Below are positions 2,688 through 43,038 of a stretch of 64,000 nucleotides of DNA, in pieces (the first letter of the stretch is position 1; every line of letters begins with the position of its first letter). The stretch is from an uncultured Clostridia bacterium (GTDB lineage Bacteria; Bacillota; Clostridia; Christensenellales; Aristaeellaceae). The stretch is from positions 1 to 64,000 of the forward strand of contig CANQEW010000003.1 of the NCBI GenBank assembly GCA_947596085.1, written 5' to 3'. The notes beneath the pieces were generated by a model. The model did no database searches and was not told the DNA's origin. It was given only the letters and a program-made list of their open reading frames with translations. The position numbers and the translations under genes were made by a program.

Positions 2688-2715
2688 GCGAGTGCGGTTT
2701 ATTTTAGAAATATTG

Positions 2716-5562
2716 TTACAATGGCGCGCGATTCGCGCCCAGCTGCAGCAGGGGGGCGAGATACGCGCCGGTGCTGCTGGCGGGATTCGCGGCCACTTCC
2801 TCGGGCGTGCCCCGGGCGATCACCGTGCCGCCCCGGTCGCCGCCGCGCGGGCCGAGGTCGATGATGTAATCGGCGGTCTTGATCACGTCCAGATTGTGCT
2901 CGATCACCACCAGCGTGTTGCCCGCGTCGGCCAGACGGTGCAGCACTTCGTTGAGCATCGCCACGTCCGCCGTATGCAGGCCGGTGGTGGGCTCGTCCAG
3001 CACGTAGAGCGTGCGGCCGGTCGCCTTGCGGGAGAGCTCCGTGGCCAGCTTGATGCGCTGGGCCTCGCCGCCGGAGAGCGTGTCGGACGGCTGGCCGAGC
3101 TTGACGTAGCCCAGCCCCACATCGCGCATGGTCTGCAGCTTCGCGCGCAGGCGCGGCAGCGGATCGAAGAACTCCAGCGCCTCCTCCACCGTCATCTCCA
3201 GCACGTCGTAGATGCTCTTGCCCTTGTAGCGCACCTCCAGCGTCTCGCGGTTGTAGCGCCGGCCGTGGCAGACCTCGCAGGGCACGTACACGTCGGTCAG
3301 AAACTGCATTTCGATCTTGAGGATGCCGTCGCCGGAGCAGGCCTCGCAGCGCCCGCCCTTGACGTTGAAGCTGAAGCGGTTGGCCTTGTAGCCGCGCGCC
3401 TTGGCGTCGGGGGTGGAGGCGAACACATCGCGGATCATGTCGAAGAGCCCGGTGTAGGTGGCGGGATTCGAGCGCGGCGTGCGGCCGATGGGCGACTGGT
3501 CGATCAGAATCGCCTTGTCGAGCTGCTCCGCGCCGTCGATGCCGTCGTGCTCGGCGGCCTTCTGGCGCGAGCGGTTGAGCGTGCGGGAGAGAGACTTGTA
3601 GAGGATTTCGTTGACCAGCGAGCTCTTGCCGCTGCCGGACACGCCGGTCACGCAGCAGAGCACGCCCAGCGGGAAGGCGACGTCGATGTTCTTCAGGTTG
3701 TTGGCGCGCGCGCCGCGCACGGTCAGCCACCCCGATGGACTGCGGTGCCCGAGCGGCAGCGGAACGGATTTCGCGCCGGAGAGGTACTGGCCCGTCAGCG
3801 AGTCGGGGCAGGCCATGATCTGTTCGGGCGTGCCCGCGGCCATCACGCGCCCGCCGTTGATGCCCGCGCCGGGGCCGATGTCGACGATGAAGTCCGCCGC
3901 GCGCATGGTGTCCGCGTCGTGTTCGACGACGATCAGCGTGTTGCCCAGGTCGCGCAGGTGGCGCAGCGTGCCCAGCAGCTTTTCGTTGTCGGACTGGTGC
4001 AGGCCGATGGACGGTTCATCCAGTATGTAGAGCACGCCGGTGAGCCCCGAACCGATCTGCGTGGCCAGGCGGATGCGCTGGGCCTCGCCGCCGGAGAGCG
4101 TGCCCGCCGAGCGGGAGAGGGTCAGGTATTCGAGCCCCACATCGGTGAGGAAGCTCAACCGCGCGTCGATCTCCTTCAGGAGCTGATTGGCGATGATTCG
4201 CTCCTTTTCGCTCAGCGTCAGCCCGCGGAAGAATTCGCGCGCCTGCGATACGGTCATCGCGGAGACGTCGTAGATGGACCTGTCGGCGATGGTCACGCTC
4301 AGCGCCTCGCGGCGCAGGCGCCTGCCGCCGCAGTCAGGGCAGGTGATGTTGGCCATGTAGTCCTCGTAAGCGGATTTCATGCTTTCAGAGGTGGTCTCCC
4401 GGTAGCGGCGCTCGAGGTTGGTCACCACGCCCTCAAAGGGCACGCTGAAGCTACCGCTGCCGCTGGCGCGCTCGTACTCCACGCGGATCTTTTTGCCCCG
4501 CGTGCCGTAGAGCACGGCGTTCATCTGCTCCTCGGTGAGCTCCGACACCGGCCGGTCCAGCGAGAAGCCATAGGCCTCGGCCAGGGCGCGCAGGTAGGAC
4601 GCGGCCATCGAGCCCGGCTCGGAGGTGTTCCAGCCGGTGACCTTGATCGCGCCCTCGTTGAAGGAGAGGCTTCGGTCGGGGATGATGATGTCGGGATCCA
4701 TCTTGAGCAGCACGCCCAGGCCCGTGCAGGTGGGACACGCGCCGTAGGGATTGTTGAAGGAGAACAGCCGGGGCTCCAGCGCCTCGATGGAGATGCCGCA
4801 ATCCGGGCAGGCGTAATTCTGGGAGTGGAGCGTCTCCCGGCCCGTGTCCATCTCGATCACGTTGACCAGCCCGCCACCGAGATTCAGCGCCGTCTCCAGC
4901 GAATCGGTGAGGCGCTGCTGCAGGTCGGGCCGGATGATGACGCGGTCGACCACAATCTCGATGGTGTGCTTCTTGGTCTTGGCGAGCTTCGGCGGGTCGG
5001 AGAGCTCGCAGAGCTCGCCGTCCACGCGCGCGCGCACGAAGCCCTTCTTCTGCATGTCCTCGAAGAGCTTCGAATACTCGCCCTTGCGGCCGCGCACCAC
5101 CGGCGCCAGCAGCATCAGCTTCGTGCGCTCGGGCAGGGCGGTGATGCTGTCGATGATCTGATCGACGGTCTGGCGCTCGATCACCCGGCCGCACTCAGGA
5201 CAGTGGGGCACGCCCACGCGCGCGTACATCAGGCGCAGATGGTCATAGATCTCCGTGACCGTGCCTACGGTGGAGCGTGGATTGCGGCTGGTGGTCTTCT
5301 GGTCGATGGAGATCGCCGGGGAGAGGCCCTGGATCAGGTCCACGTCAGGCTTGTCCATCTGGCCGAGGAACTGCCGGGCGTAGCTGGACAGGGATTCGAC
5401 GTATCTTCGCTGGCCCTCGGCGTAGATCGTGTCGAAGGCGAGCGAGGACTTGCCCGAGCCGGACAGGCCGGTCATCACGATCAGCTTGTTCCGGGGCAGG
5501 TCGATGTCGATGCTCTTCAGGTTGTGCTGCCGCGCGCCGCGGATGCGAATGAAATCGTTCAT
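2716..5562 (-). CDS. uvrA: Excinuclease ABC subunit A
   Basis: 948 aa, the usual UvrA length. It is the damage-recognition ATPase of nucleotide excision repair and loads UvrB. The first Walker A is GLSGSGKSS (32-40) and the second is GVSGSGKSS in the C-terminal half. Two ABC signatures [10 protein letters not shown] are visible, one per half. Zinc-module cysteines appear as [15 protein letters not shown] and CEACSGDG...CEVCHGRR. The N-terminus [16 protein letters not shown] is canonical and AGGAG lies 8 nt before it. It follows uvrB with a 36-bp gap, so the two are one operon. No missing motif was noticed. Confidence 0.98.
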
Positions 5563-31959: not shown

Positions 31960-32676
31960 ATGAGCAACATTCCCACACCCCATATCAACGCCAGGGAGGG
32001 AGACTTCGCGAGGACCGTGCTGATGCCGGGCGATCCGCTTCGCTCGAAGTTCATCGCGGATCACTATCTGACCGGCGCGGTGCTGGTCAACAACGTGCGC
32101 GGCGTGCAGGGCTACACCGGCACCTACAAGGGCAAGCGCGTGTCCGTGATGGCCAGCGGCATGGGCATGCCGTCCATCGGCATCTATTCCTACGAACTGT
32201 ACAACTTTTACGGCGTGGAGAACATCATTCGCGTGGGCTCCGCCGGGGCGATGAGCGCCAAGCTCAAGCTGCGCGACGTGGTGGCGGGCGTGAGCGCCTA
32301 TTCGACCTCCAACTATGGCTATCAGTTTGGCTTCGACGGCGTGCTTGCGCCCTGTTGCTCCTGGGAACTGCTGGAGAAGGCGGTGGCTGCGGCCAAGGAG
32401 CTGGGACAGCCCCTCGTGCCCGGTCCGGTGTTTTCCAGCGACTGCTTCTATGAGCAGGGCGGCAATGTAACGGCCAGCCAAAAGCTGATGAAGCTGGGCG
32501 TGCTCTGCGTGGAGATGGAGGCCTACGCGCTCTACCTCAACGCCGCGGCTGCGGGCAAGAACGCGCTGGCGCTCCTGACCATTTCGGACAGCGTCGTGAC
32601 CGGCGAAGCGCTCTCCGCCGAAGACCGGCAGAATACGTTCACGAAGATGATGGAAATCGCCCTGGAGATCGCCTGA
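31960..32676 (+). CDS. deoD: Purine-nucleoside phosphorylase (DeoD type)
   Basis: 238 aa, family length. It phosphorolyses purine (deoxy)nucleosides in the cytoplasm as a hexamer. Phosphate-binding MPGDPLRSKFIA (Gly24, Arg28), RVGSAGAM, the purine/ribose residues in CVEMEAYAL and catalytic Asp in ISDSVVTGE (near 205) are all present. AAGGAGGAGAG precedes the start. Confidence 0.97.
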   Translation: MSNIPTPHINAREGDFARTVLMPGDPLRSKFIADHYLTGAVLVNNVRGVQGYTGTYKGKRVSVMASGMGMPSIGIYSYELYNFYGVENIIRVGSAGAMSAKLKLRDVVAGVSAYSTSNYGYQFGFDGVLAPCCSWELLEKAVAAAKELGQPLVPGPVFSSDCFYEQGGNVTASQKLMKLGVLCVEMEAYALYLNAAAAGKNALALLTISDSVVTGEALSAEDRQNTFTKMMEIALEIA

Positions 32677-32714: not shown

Positions 32715-32743
32715 TTGCGCCGGAAGCGGGAATGCACTATAAT
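32715..32743 (+). promoter_or_regulatory. Promoter of the SGNH/MBOAT/DHHW locus
   Basis: TTGCGC (32715-32720), 17 bp, TATAAT (32738-32743). Transcription should begin near 32750, which excludes translation starts upstream of that. Confidence 0.75.
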
Positions 32744-32840
32744 GGATGGCGAATTTCCGGTGGGGGAGAACGAGAGCGCGCTTTGCGCGAGCAGATACGA
32801 GGGAAGCAGATGGAGAATCCAAGGGCGCAACGTCCCGCGA

Positions 32841-32865
32841 GCTCCGGCCGCCATGCGGCCGGAGC
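32841..32865 (+). other. Perfect 11-bp hairpin at the SGNH gene start
   Basis: GCTCCGGCCGC (32841-32851) pairs with GCGGCCGGAGC (32855-32865) across a 3-nt loop, and the candidate ATG (32853-32855) lies in it. It could hide the start codon, or mark a sequence prone to replication or reading errors. Confidence 0.6.
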
Positions 32866-33827
32866 ACATTGCGTTACGCAAACATGCGAGGTTTCCGCGC
32901 GCCGGAAGCGCGAAAGGCGGCGCGCGCGGCGGGTTTCTGGCGGCGCTCGGCGCGAACCGGTTCTGGCTGTTCGGCGGCGTTGGCGTGATCCTCGTCGCTG
33001 CCATCGTGGCGCTGATCGCGGCGCGTCCATCCGCGCCGGAACCGCAGGAAGCTCCGGCCACGGCGGCGCCGTCCCCGATACCTGCGGTGGAGGCGCCGGT
33101 TTCCACGAACGCGCCCTTGCCGACGATGGTGCCGGCCTACGAGCTGCGCACGGACTATCCCAACACGATCGACCCGCTCGGCCTGCCCGAGAGCAGCCGG
33201 GTGGACGATTCCTACTTTGACGACGCGATCTTCGTCGGCGATTCCGTCACGCTCAAGCTGCGCCAGTATGCGCTCAACGCCAGAAAGAACGGCGAGCCGT
33301 CGCTGCTGGGTCAGGCCAACTTCCTCGCGGCGCAGAGCTTCAGCGCGCGCAACGCCCTGCATGAAGTTTCGGAGACCTCCATTCATCCGGTGATCGGCGG
33401 CGTGAAGATGACGCTGGAGGAGGCCGTGGCAGTTTCCGGAGCGAAGAAGCTCTACATCATGCTCGGCATGAACGACGTGGGCGTCGTGGGTGCGGAAAAG
33501 AGCGTGCAGAACATGATCGAGCTTCTGCGGCGCATTCAGGAAAAGAATCCGGGAATCCGTATTTTTGTCGAATCCGCCACGCCCCGTCTGTCGGGCACCG
33601 AGCCGACGACCGGGCAGCTGTTCGAATACGACGTGAAGCTCTACGATGCGATCCTGGCGCTGAACGATCCGAACATCCGCTATGTGGACGTTGCCTACGC
33701 CATGCGCGACGAGCAGGGCAAGCTGCGCGCGGAGTTTTGCGGCGATCCCGACGGCATGGCCATCCACTTCACCAACGAGGGCTGCCGGCAGTGGATCGAC
33801 TATCTCTATACCCACGCGCTCGCGTGA
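32853..33827 (+). CDS. SGNH/GDSL-type hydrolase, membrane-anchored (start uncertain)
   Basis: About 324 aa. A basic tail and one transmembrane helix (FWLFGGVGVILVAAIVALIAA) lead to a Pro/Ala linker and an extracytoplasmic SGNH domain: block I DAIFVGDSVTLKLRQYA with the nucleophile Ser, block III-like LGMNDVG, and the late Asp/His pair in CGDPDGMAIHFTNEG. Such enzymes add or remove acetyl groups on polymers. The best ribosome site (GAGGGAAGCAG) serves ATG 32810, which is in a different frame, so either a start at 32853 is used or the 5' end carries an indel. It heads an operon with a lipoprotein, MBOAT and DHHW proteins. Confidence 0.75.
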   Translation: MRPEHIALRKHARFPRAGSAKGGARGGFLAALGANRFWLFGGVGVILVAAIVALIAARPSAPEPQEAPATAAPSPIPAVEAPVSTNAPLPTMVPAYELRTDYPNTIDPLGLPESSRVDDSYFDDAIFVGDSVTLKLRQYALNARKNGEPSLLGQANFLAAQSFSARNALHEVSETSIHPVIGGVKMTLEEAVAVSGAKKLYIMLGMNDVGVVGAEKSVQNMIELLRRIQEKNPGIRIFVESATPRLSGTEPTTGQLFEYDVKLYDAILALNDPNIRYVDVAYAMRDEQGKLRAEFCGDPDGMAIHFTNEGCRQWIDYLYTHALA

Positions 33828-33856
33828 GCGTCGCGCTGCGAAAGGAAGATTTACAC

Positions 33857-34309
33857 ATGAAGAGGGCGTTTGCGATCGCGCTTCTGCTCGCGATGACACT
33901 GACGCTGGCCGCCTGCGGCGGGAAGGCGAAGTCCGCCGATCTGGCCGCCGTAATGGCCGAATTCAAGCTCGGCGACGAGATGATGACGCCTGGAATTGAG
34001 CGATTTGACCGACATTTACGGCATCGATGCGGCCACGTGAAGCAGTGCGCCGCCGCGATGCATTCGTCGGGCGTCAACTGCGACGAGATCATACTGATCG
34101 AGGCCGTGGATGCCGCCGCCGCGGGCCGCGTCAAGGCCATTCTGGACGCGCGCTATCAGGCGAAGCTCACCGAGACGAAGGACTACCTGCCCGACGAGTA
34201 CGCCATCATTCAGCAGTGCTCGGTGACGGCCAGGGGAAACGATGTGGCGATGATCGTCGCGCCCAACGCGGCGGAGCTCACCGCCATCTACGACAAGAGC
34301 GTTTCGTGA
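33857..34309 (+). CDS. DUF4358-like lipoprotein with a locally shifted reading frame
   Basis: 150 aa. Lipoprotein signal MKRAFAIALLLAMTLTLAAC (Cys20). The C-terminal half (VKQCAAAMHSSGVNCDEIILIEAVDA...KDYLPDEYAIIQQCSV) fits the DUF4358 family that often accompanies SGNH/MBOAT genes. Between 34001 and 34036 the encoded RFDRHLRHRCGH makes no family sense, whereas the next frame reads DLTDIYGIDAA, the expected sequence. One base gained near 34001 and one lost near 34035 would explain it. The protein is full length but has about 12 altered residues. The family name is from memory. Confidence 0.7.
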   Translation: MKRAFAIALLLAMTLTLAACGGKAKSADLAAVMAEFKLGDEMMTPGIERFDRHLRHRCGHVKQCAAAMHSSGVNCDEIILIEAVDAAAAGRVKAILDARYQAKLTETKDYLPDEYAIIQQCSVTARGNDVAMIVAPNAAELTAIYDKSVS

Positions 34310-34335
34310 CCGCGGATTCGCTGTAGGAATATAGG

Positions 34336-34370
34336 AACGACTCCGTGGCGAGAGCGCACGGAGTCGTTTT
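34336..34370 (+). terminator. Hairpin between the lipoprotein and MBOAT genes
   Basis: Perfect 12-bp stem AACGACTCCGTG/CACGGAGTCGTT (34336-34347 with 34357-34368), 9-nt loop, ending TTTTC. It is probably a terminator or attenuator inside the locus; no new promoter is obvious before the MBOAT gene. Confidence 0.7.
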
Positions 34371-34391
34371 CGGGAAGGGAGGCGCGGCGCT

Positions 34392-35793
34392 TTGGTATTC
34401 TCCAGCATGGTGTTCCTGTTCGGCTTTCTGCCATCGTGCTCTTTGCGTTTTACGCGCTGCCGCGGCCGCTGCGCAATCCGTTTCTGCTGATCGCGAACCT
34501 GGTGTTTTACGGCTGGGGCGAGCCCGTGTACGTGCTGCTGATGGTCTTCGCCACCGTCGTCAACTTCATTCTCGGCGGGCTCTCGACCGCTGGCGCGAGG
34601 TGTGCCCCGGCGTGGCGCGCGCGTGCGTCTGCGCCGCCGTGCTGATCAGCGTCGCCAGCCTGGGCGCGTTCAAATACGCCGGGCTGCTGGCGGAGTTGTA
34701 CAACGCGATTCCGTTCCTGCCGGACGTGGCCGTGCCGCAGATCGCGCTGCCCACCGGCATCTCCTTCTACACCTTCCAGGCGATGTCCTACACCATCGAC
34801 GTTTACCGCCGGGACGCGCCCGCGCAGCGGAATCTGGTGAACTTCGGCGTGTACGTGACGCTGTTCCCGCAGCTGATCGCCGGACCGATCGTGCACTACA
34901 AGGACGTCGCGGGGCAGATCAACGGCGAGCGCGTGCCCCTGGATCAGTTCGCGCTGGGGATTCGCCAGTTCCTGGTGGGCCTGAGCAAGAAGGTGTTGAT
35001 CGCGAATCAGATGGGCCTGTGCTGGGACATGCTGCGCGCCCATGCGGCGGCCAACGGCACGCTGGCCGCGTGGGTGGGCGTCGCCGCCTACAGTTTTCAA
35101 ATCTACTTCGATTTCAGCGGCTACTCCGACATGGCGCTGGGCCTGGGCAACATGCTGGGCTTCCGCTTCATGCGCAACTTTGACTACCCCTACGTCTCCC
35201 GGAGCATCACCGAGTTCTGGCGGCGATGGCACATCTCCCTGAGCACCTGGTTCCGCGACTACGTGTACATCCCGCTGGGCGGAAGCCGCGTCGCGCCGGT
35301 GCGGATGTATTTCAATCTCTTCGCGGTGTGGTTTCTCACGGGGCTCTGGCACGGCGCGAGTCTGAACTTCGTCGCCTGGGGGCTGTACTACTTTGTCATC
35401 CTCGCGCTGGAGAAGCGCTTCCTGCTGAAGCGGCTGGAGCGGCTCCCCGACGCCGCGCGCCACGCCTACGCGCTGCTGCTGGTGATGCTCGGCTGGGCGC
35501 TGTTCTACTTCGATGCGGGCATGGGCGACTGCCTGCGCTTCTTGGGCGCGATGTTCGGCGGAGCGGAGTGCTTCGTCTCGGGCGATGCGCTGAACGTGAT
35601 TCTGCGCTACCTGCCGCTGATGGCTGTAGCCGCCGTCGCGTGCACGCCGCTGGGGGCGCGCACCTGGCGGCACCTCGAGCGCTGGGCCGGGCGCGACGTG
35701 CTGGAGATCGCCCTGTGCGCGGGAGCGCTCCTTCTGTGCGCGGCGGCGCTGTCCGGGCAGAGCTACAATCCCTTCCTCTACTTCAAATTCTAA
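34392..35793 (+). pseudogene. MBOAT family O-acyltransferase, two frameshifts in the N-terminal part
   Basis: Expected product is a polytopic acyltransferase (AlgI/DltB/PatA-like) that moves acyl groups across the membrane. Three frames must be joined: TTG 34392 gives MVFSSMVFLFGFLP; a missing base near 34431 shifts to IVLFAFYALPRPLRNPFLLI...NFILGGL; a second missing base near 34582 (CTCCTC read as CTCTC) shifts to LDRWREVCPGVARACVCAAVLI to the end. The C-terminal part is intact, with ITEFWRRWHISLSTWFRDYVYIPLGG and the catalytic His in TGLWHGASLNFVAWG. AGGGAGG precedes the TTG. Either a recent pseudogene or an error in the sequence. Confidence 0.85.
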
Positions 35794-35805
35794 GGAGGTA
35801 TCGGC

Positions 35806-36917
35806 ATGCTCCATCGAGGAACGCGGCGCGCGCTGGTTCTCCTGTTCTGCGGCTGCCTCGCCGCCGTCGGCGTTCTCTACCTCGCCCTGCCGAAAGCGGA
35901 TTTTTCCGAGCGGGAGAAGCGCAGGCTGGCGGAGCTGCCGGAGCTGACGTGGAGCGGCGTACTCAGCGGCGACTTTGAGTCGGACTTCGAGAGGTGGATG
36001 AGCGATCACATTCCCGGCCGGGAGGCGCTGGTCGGGCTGAACGCCTACTATTCGCTCGCCAGCGGCCGCAACGGCCTCGACGGCACGCTGTACGCGGACG
36101 GAAAACTCTACGACGCGGCGTGGGAACTGGACGCGGACGCGGTCGCGCGCAAGTGCGAGATCATCAGCCGCTTCGCGCGGGAGACCGGCCTGCCCACGGA
36201 CGTGCTGATCGTGCCCACGTCGGGCTACATGTGCGAGAGCAAACTTCCGATGCACGCGAAGTACCGCGACGGCGAGCTTGCGGAGCTCGTGCGCGGCGGG
36301 TTGAGCGGTGGAGCGCATTTGATCTGGCCGGAGGAGGCGCTACGCGCGGCGGGCGGCCAGCTCTACTACAACACCGACCATCACCTGACCTCCCGCGGCG
36401 CGTACGAGATCTGCAAATTGTACGTGGAGTCGCTCGGGCTCGAAATGCCGGGCGAGGACGAGTACGACGTGGAGGTCCACGAGGGCTTCTACGGCTCCAT
36501 GTATGCCCAGTCGGGGCTGTGGGCCGTGAAGCCCGATTCGCTGGAGTCTGGCGCAGCCGCCGCCTCGGAGCGGTGGAGGTCGCCTTCGACGACCGCGAGA
36601 GCGCCGGCGAGCTGTTCTTCCCGGAGCATCTGGCGGAGATGGACAAGTATCCCGTATTCCTCGACGGCAACCACGCGCTCGTCACCATCGAGACGGACAA
36701 CGAGGCGGGGGAGAACCTGCTGATGATCCGCGACTCCTTCGGCCACTGCTTCGCGCCGTTCGCGGCGGACAGCTTCCACCGCATCGCGTTGGTGGATCTG
36801 CGCTACTACCGCGGGTCCGTGACGGAGCTCGCGAAGGAGATGGAGATCGACCGCGCGCTCGTGCTCTACGGCGCGGACAGCTTCGCCGGCGACAGCAACT
36901 TCGGCTGGCCGCGGTGA
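35806..36917 (+). pseudogene. DHHW/AlgX-like acetyltransferase partner, one frameshift
   Basis: Expected about 370 aa. Short N-terminal signal-anchor (RALVLLFCGCLAAVGVLYLAL), then LPELTWSGVLSGDFESDFERWMSDHIPGREAL and the signature YYNTDHHLTSRGAYE. The frame opened at 35806 runs correctly to LES at 36546; there a base appears lost (36547-36549), and the neighbouring frame continues WRSRRLGAVEVAFDDRESAGEL to NFGWPR, stop at 36917. MIRDSFGHCFAPF, the second catalytic-type motif, lies after the break, so the truncated product would be inactive. DHHW proteins work with MBOAT proteins in acetylating surface polymers. It starts 12 bp after the MBOAT gene. Confidence 0.85.
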
Positions 36918-36923
36918 GAATGC

Positions 36924-36952
36924 TTGACAGGCGCGCACGGAGACGGTATAAT
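36924..36952 (+). promoter_or_regulatory. metK promoter
   Basis: Perfect TTGACA (36924-36929), 17 bp, TATAAT (36947-36952). Confidence 0.9.
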
Positions 36953-36974: not shown

Positions 36975-37119
36975 GCCTTATCGAGAGTGGTTGAGGGACG
37001 GGCCCGATGAAACCCGGCAACCGGTCGCGAAAGCGACAAGGTGCCAATTCCCGCGGCGCATGCCGAAAGATGAGGCGAGCTTGAAGCAAAATTTCGACTC
37101 GCCGGCGGCGGGTCTTTTT
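36975..37119 (+). promoter_or_regulatory. SAM-I (S-box) riboswitch with terminator
   Basis: The S-box core is unmistakable: CTTATCGAGAG, GGTTGAGGGACGGGCCCGA, TGAAACCCGGCAACC, AAGGTGCCAATTCC and GATGAGG. P1 pairs GCCTTATC (36975-36982) with GATGAGGC (37069-37076). The expression platform is a terminator, GACTCGCC/GGCGGGTC (37096-37103 with 37107-37114) plus T5. SAM binding should terminate transcription before metK. Confidence 0.97.
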
Positions 37120-37148: not shown

Positions 37149-38306
37149 ATGCGCCATCTCTTTACTTCCGAGTCCGTGACCGAGGGACATCCGGACAAAA
37201 TTTGCGACCAGATCTCCGACGCCGTGCTCGACGCCATTCTCGCTCAGGATCCCGACGCCCACGTGGCCTGCGAGTGCGCCACCACCACGGGCATGGTGCT
37301 GGTGATGGGAGAGATCTCCACCAGCGCCTACGTGCCCATCGACCAGATCGCGCGAAACAAGATTGTGGAGATCGGCTACGACCGGGCCAAGTACGGCTTC
37401 GACGGCCAGAGCTGCGCCGTCCTCACCAGCATCGACGACCAGTCGCCCGACATCGCCCGGGGCGTGAACCGGGAGGTCGACATGGACCAGGGCGCGGGCG
37501 ATCAGGGCATGATGTTCGGCTACGCCTGCGACGAGACGCCGGAATACATGCCGCTGGCGATCTCGCTCGCGCACAAGCTTACCCGCCGCCTTGCCGAGGT
37601 TCGCAAGAGCGGCGCGCTGCCCTGGCTGCGTCCGGACGGCAAGGGCCAGGTGACGGTGGAGTACGACGACGACCGCCCGCTGCGCATCGACGCGGTGGTG
37701 CTCTCCACCCAGCACGCGCCGGAGATCGGCCAGGACGAGATCCGCGCGAGCGTGCTCGATCAGGTGATCCGGCCGGTGCTTCCGGCGGACATGCTGGACG
37801 AGCGCACGAAGTTCTTCGTCAATCCCACGGGCCGCTTCGTGATCGGCGGTCCGCAGGGCGACTCCGGCCTCACGGGCCGAAAGATCATCGTGGATACCTA
37901 CGGCGGCTACGCCCATCACGGCGGCGGCGCGTTTTCCGGCAAGGACCCCAGCAAGGTGGATCGCAGCGCGGCCTACGCCATGCGCTACGTGGCGAAGAAC
38001 CTGGTGGCGGCGGGGCTCGCCCGGAGGTGCGAGGTCGGCGTGGCCTACGCCATCGGCGTGGCGGAGCCGGTGAGTGTGTTCGTGGACAGCGAGGGCACCG
38101 GCGCGCTCCCGGACGACAGGCTCGCCGGGGTGGTGCGGCGGGTCTTCGATCTGCGCCCGGCGGCCATCATCCGCGACCTCGACCTCAAGCGCCCCATCTA
38201 CGCGCAGACCGCGGCCTACGGCCACTTCGGCCGGGACGATCTGGATTTACCCTGGGAGCGCCTGGATCGCGTGGACGCCTTGCGGAAGGCGGCGCGGGAG
38301 GCGTAA
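37149..38306 (+). CDS. metK: S-adenosylmethionine synthetase
   Basis: 385 aa. It makes SAM from methionine and [26 protein letters not shown] with the catalytic HPDK (14-17), [20 protein letters not shown], and the P-loop-like [20 protein letters not shown] are diagnostic. AGGAGG at 37135-37140. It is controlled by the SAM-I riboswitch directly upstream, that is, by its own product. Confidence 0.98.
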
Positions 38307-42371: not shown

Positions 42372-42410
42372 CAAATGCCCTTCGCTCAAACGCGGCAGAA
42401 GGATGGGATT

Positions 42411-42576
42411 CCAAAGGGTCGATGACCCTTTGGCAGGTCTGGGCAGCGCCCAGCGTAGCCCCAGCGGCCCGCGCAGCGATCCACGCCGAAACATCCGGTG
42501 CCAACCCAACATCGCCATCCGTCGCGGGCCGCAGCGGCGCTTTTCGGTTTGGAAAGTAAAACTTTCCAAACCGAAA
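42411..42576. repeat. Intergenic element with three perfect hairpins
   Basis: Stem 1: CCAAAGGGTC (42411-42420) with GACCCTTTGG (42424-42433). Stem 2: CTGGGC (42439-42444) with GCCCAG (42448-42453). Stem 3: TTTCGGTTTGGAAAG (42542-42556) with its 15-base complement (42562-42576), loop TAAAA. No gene. The layout suggests a dispersed intergenic repeat (REP or MITE-like) or a structured RNA; only one copy is in this window. Confidence 0.55.
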
Positions 42577-43038
42577 CAGCCGCCACTATCTCTTTTTTCT
42601 ACCGTTTTTTCTTCAAAGATGTCCGAACCGTTCCTGCCACCGCAGTTTTTTCACACTTCGCGGAACCCGTGAGAGTTTTCCACGAAAAAACCAGCGGCTT
42701 GCCTAAAAATCTCGCGATCCTTCAGACGAACGTTAACACATCAAGATTGTTTTCCCCTTTGCGTCGCTCAAACAAAACCAAATCCGCCATACCCGCTGTC
42801 GAATTCAATTAAACTGGCTCGAGATTTTGAATTTTTTTGACCAGTAAAGCTTTCGTACGACGGGAAGTCCTTGTATGCGTCGTACAATAGGTAATTATCG
42901 GATAAGATGTAGAAGCAAATCCCTGAGATTCCAAAGCAAACTGTTGCTTAGAAACATAATAATTGCGCAGATTGCGAAAATTGCGGACAAATATTCTATT
43001 CATTCGGGAAAGTATCAAAAAAAATGTACCCGTCGCTA
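42577..43038. other. Gene-free, AT-rich stretch upstream of mglB
   Basis: No supported coding sequence. The only structure noticed is an inverted repeat, GTACGACG (42855-42862) with CGTCGTAC (42878-42885), 15 bp apart, about 160 bp upstream of the mglB promoter, a possible regulator site. Several T- and A-runs are present without a stem. Confidence 0.5.

Follow-up and report, generated by a model that had tools for sequence, protein, structure and literature searches.

Where several single-base frame events crowd into one operon, has the cell lost the genes or has the assembly lost the bases? The locus that raises this question is a four-gene operon (SGNH/GDSL hydrolase, DUF4358 lipoprotein, MBOAT acyltransferase and DHHW protein) at 32.7-36.9 kb of the window, the window being the whole 64-kb stretch of DNA at the start of contig C3, which is 105 kb long. 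The contig belongs to a metagenome-type genome that totals 3.1 Mb, is spread over 132 contigs and is 87% complete. The operon and its surroundings contain the following features.

31960-32676, + strand: purine-nucleoside phosphorylase family gene (PF01048), the upstream neighbour of the operon, intact (profile match, gene model)
32841-32866, + strand: perfect hairpin (11 pairs, 3-base loop) ahead of the SGNH domain, with no T-run after it (z -5.7)
33126-33827, + strand: SGNH/GDSL-type hydrolase domain (PF13472), intact (profile match, gene model)
33857-34309, + strand: DUF4358 lipoprotein gene, whose frame is open throughout (profile match, gene model, relative comparison)
34334-34369, + strand: terminator-like hairpin with four T after it, between the lipoprotein and MBOAT genes (z -6.4)
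34393-35793, + strand: MBOAT acyltransferase gene (PF03062), spread across three frames (profile, relatives' alignments, gene model)
35806-36917, + strand: DHHW-family (PatB1-like) gene (PF14286), spread across two frames (profile, relatives, structure-sequence matches)
36975-37076, + strand: SAM riboswitch (RF00162), full length, downstream of the operon
37149-38306, + strand: S-adenosylmethionine synthetase gene, downstream of the operon, intact, with the SAM riboswitch ahead of it

A 2.56-kb part of this operon (about 33,991 to 36,547) contains five single-base frame events, two of them in the MBOAT gene, one in the DHHW gene and a gain/loss pair in the lipoprotein gene. The MBOAT gene cannot be read as one complete open frame, and requires three frames (34392-34433, 34433-34582 and 34582-35790) joined by switches near 34431 and 34582, each amounting to a net loss of one base; the longest piece scores 101.3 bits against the PF03062 profile (cut-off 27). 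Nine relative loci supplied open reading frame translations for alignment to the operon region, and the relatives' MBOAT frames crossed at least two frames of the window in all seven MBOAT-bearing loci tested, with the first switch, and thus all three frames, also seen in three of the seven (L050, L052 and L056). The base losses near 34431 and 34582 proposed in the first-pass annotation are thus borne out by the relatives. Among 80 related loci from named genomes, the N-terminal part of MBOAT is in frame in 77, the exceptions being two loci that run off their contigs and one that is short. Another full-length MBOAT frame is present in the genome, on contig C4.

In the DHHW gene, the frame switches at about 36546-36547, again with a net loss of one base, and the switch is seen against all six relative loci compared, in agreement with the event placed earlier at 36547-36549. 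The first half of the gene scores 41.9 bits against the PF14286 profile (cut-off 25); the second half scores 19.7 bits, which alone is under the cut-off, and covers a later portion of the profile. The two halves match consecutive parts of solved PatB1 (residues 4-180 and 258-358), and the blocks TDHHL, RDSFG and DLRY are all found but divided between the two frames, with the DHH block before the break and the RDSF and DLRY blocks after it. In the 59 related loci where both halves were found, the gene occupies a single frame in every case.

The lipoprotein gene presents a subtler case, with an out-of-frame stretch at about 33991-34036 between one gain and one loss that cancel, so that the ORF remains open. 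Compared with the nearest relative, whose homologue is intact, the shifted frame scores 31 and the reading frame 14, and 5 of 2000 shuffles were equally good; the gain/loss pair earlier assigned to about 34001 and 34035 can therefore be retained, at about 33991 and 34036. The hairpin downstream of this gene was not called by a pattern scan. For the SGNH gene, no frame event near 32810 could be confirmed, since the gene model found no frame with a clear coding signal in 32810-32960 and this stretch has no homology to relatives. The SGNH frame continues upstream through a membrane segment at about 32960, and the true start may lie anywhere in 32715-32886. Thus, of an earlier count of five or six events in four genes, five events stand, the sixth does not, and the broken genes number two. 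In relative locus L052 (G020:C76, about 2700-3720), a second SGNH gene adjoins an intact one and is apparently split over two frames.

The background rate of frameshifts was estimated by scanning 58 stretches (1,180,748 bases including the window) with a frame-aware gene model, whose training on the genome itself made use of an amino-acid plausibility filter. A separate filter was applied to the frameshift calls because loose calls proved to be mostly overlapping genes; it passed 116 of 200 simulated losses (196 of 200 gave a call of any kind), so that some frameshifts elsewhere may be missed by it. Three filtered hits fall inside the operon, and nine rows passed the filter outside it. All nine were read by eye: five are gene junctions, a single collagen-like repeat accounts for two more, and the last two are a decayed transposase and a likely true frameshift. 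Another 11 rows, which lacked a start codon close to the junction, were also read by eye and looked like ordinary gene junctions. With a background of about two events in 1.178 Mb, 0.004 events would be expected in 2.56 kb, and the probability of at least three is about 1e-8 for one stretch and 6e-6 over all such stretches. No supported frameshift was found by the scan in the window outside the operon, which upholds the earlier statement that the other genes there read cleanly. The likely single frameshift lies in a small membrane protein gene (L200, about 7787; C1:127.8 kb), and the decayed transposase-like gene (L199, about 17640; C1:97.6 kb) shows both a frame switch and an in-frame stop, illustrating how real decay looks in this genome.

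Apart from the frame breaks, the operon genes are well preserved. All 115 of the outgroup-invariant residues are retained (MBOAT 88/88, DHHW 13/13 and 8/8, lipoprotein 6/6), one further MBOAT column differs in both same-genus genomes, and no stop codon was found inside the frame-consistent pieces of the operon genes. In comparison with the nearest relative, unique changes number 48 in this genome versus 35 for the operon and 69 versus 57 for four control genes, so the operon rates match those of the controls, with no acceleration; MBOAT alone, at 29 versus 16 (p 0.07), gives a weak hint of faster change. The dN/dS values relative to the same-genus genome G001 are 0.27-0.49 in operon pieces of at least 89 codons and 0.11 in a 31-codon piece, compared with 0.12-0.31 in seven controls, a slight elevation that such genes may usually show, and dS is similar to that of the controls. 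A frame broken relative to intact homologues is found in MBOAT and DHHW only, and neither relaxed constraint nor stop codons accompany it. According to the figures given in PMC8717266, indels make up 1.8-11.9% of new mutations in most bacteria and above 26% in Acidobacterium capsulatum; under these ratios, five indels imply some 14 to 270 substitutions, or about 37 if indels are 12% of mutations, at the top of the usual range. The chance of finding none of the damage that was checked falls from 0.30 at 10 substitutions to 0.05 at 25 and 0.0025 at 50. Slow neutral decay is therefore unlikely, because five indels should bring substitutions, yet none of the checked damage is seen, and the retained residues, open pieces and control-like rates imply that inactivation was very recent or that the responsible process made indels only.

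The assembly itself bears on whether the lesions exist in DNA. Among 52 contig termini compared, exact shared runs are at most 77 bases long, with two dovetails and two internal runs of exactly 77, and these contig-end overlaps identify the genome as a k=77 de Bruijn short-read assembly, 77 being a k used by SPAdes. Every 77-mer in such an assembly should derive from reads. Single-base indels are rare among short-read errors, and errors in short-read assemblies are mostly substitutions; the signature thus favours lesions in the DNA itself. Long-read errors are an unlikely source, since short reads seldom give one-base indels and the contigs end at unresolved repeats, the many such ends speaking against long-read help in the assembly; overlaps of 77 bases or less do not have the character of a long-read assembly, with a hybrid gap fill still conceivable. 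The ends of 12 contigs (C2, C3, C5, C7, C8, C9, C10, C14, C15, C16, C23 and C27) share one common sequence of 66-77 bases, probably the edge of a multi-copy element.

The reading that we prefer, with a probability of about 0.5, is a recent loss of one MBOAT-DHHW acylation module in the sampled strain. It is favoured by frames that are broken relative to intact relatives, by the rarity of background frameshifts, by the patchy occurrence of the module among relatives and by the k=77 signature; five indels with no visible substitution damage, no stop and no rate acceleration count against it. The first-pass annotation had considered the operon to be decaying as a unit, and this applies to MBOAT and DHHW, both of which are cut, but not to the intact SGNH gene or the open lipoprotein frame. 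Long-standing decay is also made less likely by the full retention of invariant residues and the lack of any new stop.

The strongest competitor, to which we would give somewhat less than an even chance, not far behind recent loss, is a local assembly artefact, in which about 2.6 kb was closed with poor sequence (through few reads, gap filling or faulty read correction) and the genes are intact in the cell. An artefact would account for indels alone on a fully conserved background, for normal synonymous divergence, for the compensated pair in the lipoprotein gene and for the near lack of frameshifts elsewhere, and the contigs of both same-genus genomes end in or beside the locus, which may mean that it is hard to assemble. 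However, one-base indels are not what a k=77 short-read assembly would be expected to produce, short reads in too small a number would interrupt the contig or introduce substitutions, and no like patch was found in the rest of the 1.18 Mb. Poor coverage in its ordinary form, as first suggested, is thus weakened, and it is an unusual local artefact that remains.

Less probable still, and in our view unlikely, is a single error-prone synthesis event, such as the repair of a gapped or broken stretch, that scarred about 2.6 kb with indels and inactivated MBOAT and DHHW in one step. The tight cluster of indels only, in frames that are otherwise conserved and with synonymous divergence not raised, has the form that such an event might leave, but error-prone polymerases usually leave substitutions too, and a second patch of this kind was not found in 1.18 Mb of sequence. 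Recoding, whereby ribosome or transcript slippage at each site yields full proteins, is barely credible, because although protein sequence is conserved on either side of every break, no shift is needed in 77 of 80 related MBOAT loci or 59 of 59 DHHW loci, and several unrelated sites would have to coincide in one operon with almost none elsewhere. Two further candidates were rejected: phase variation by slippage, as no long homopolymers or tandem repeats were seen in the sequence read at the frame switches, and a second operon allele in the same genome, as a single copy was found.

If recent loss is correct, the MBOAT and DHHW genes would have been inactivated very recently by single-base indels in the sampled strain. 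The broken frames, their clustering and the short-read signature are observed directly, whereas we infer the presence of the lesions in the cell, the function of the enzymes and the reason that loss was tolerated or favoured. By analogy with known systems, the MBOAT/DHHW pair probably attaches acetyl groups to a cell-surface polymer; in Bacillus cereus, PatA1/PatB1 O-acetylate wall polymers, PatB1 being the wall-polymer O-acetyltransferase, and DXRY and DHHW motifs are described for the family (PMC9487903). On the PatA1/PatB1 model, MBOAT would carry acetyl groups through the membrane, and DHHW would then attach them to a wall polymer. Neither product is expected to be functional here, since both MBOAT breaks precede the main domain and the DHHW break parts the DHH block from the serine block. 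Such a loss may be tolerated because the module is dispensable, and it looks dispensable in the genus because searches of the second same-genus genome, G002, gave no match to DHHW and none to DUF4358, and because another full-length MBOAT frame is present here.

As in the secondary-wall-polymer O-acetylation pair of Bacillus cereus, the MBOAT and DHHW genes are adjacent, and both DHHW halves match PatB1 chains; unlike that system, both genes are frame-broken, DHHL replaces DHHW, and DUF4358 and SGNH genes are added. The same MBOAT/DHHW pair occurs in the clostridial cellulose ccs locus, where CcsH/CcsI are proposed to O-acetylate a surface polysaccharide (PMC7710045), but no cellulose synthase gene was noticed beside the present operon. 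The nearest solved structures by sequence to the present MBOAT are those of DltB, the MBOAT of D-alanyl transfer, yet it is not filed as DltB, as it reaches 143 bits against an NCBIfam cut-off of 375, the protein scored being incomplete. In 30 of the 80 related loci (L099-L178), a DUF4358 gene shares its strand with the MBOAT gene and lies within 3 kb of it, and the proximity to MBOAT-DHHW pairs suggests that this little-studied lipoprotein family has a role in envelope acylation modules.

Ordinary recent frameshift pseudogenes likewise arise by single-base losses in dispensable surface-modification genes, but here several indels occur without accompanying substitution damage; a literature search for parallel loss within an operon found no match. 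If the lesions are real, the locus would capture a surface-polymer acylation pair lost very recently, before other decay set in, with more indels than visible substitution damage. Otherwise, it would show that even an assembly of short metagenome reads can contain a local cluster of indel errors liable to be annotated as pseudogenes.

Downstream of the operon, a promoter at 36924-36952 of the window is a perfect consensus (TTGACA, 17, TATAAT) located 5' of the SAM riboswitch and the S-adenosylmethionine synthetase gene. Further along the window, a dispersed intergenic repeat of about 200 bases (42388-42598), for which no Rfam family reached its gathering score, has diverged copies in the form of 13 matching pieces in other sampled stretches of this genome, and many copies also in the same-genus genome G001.
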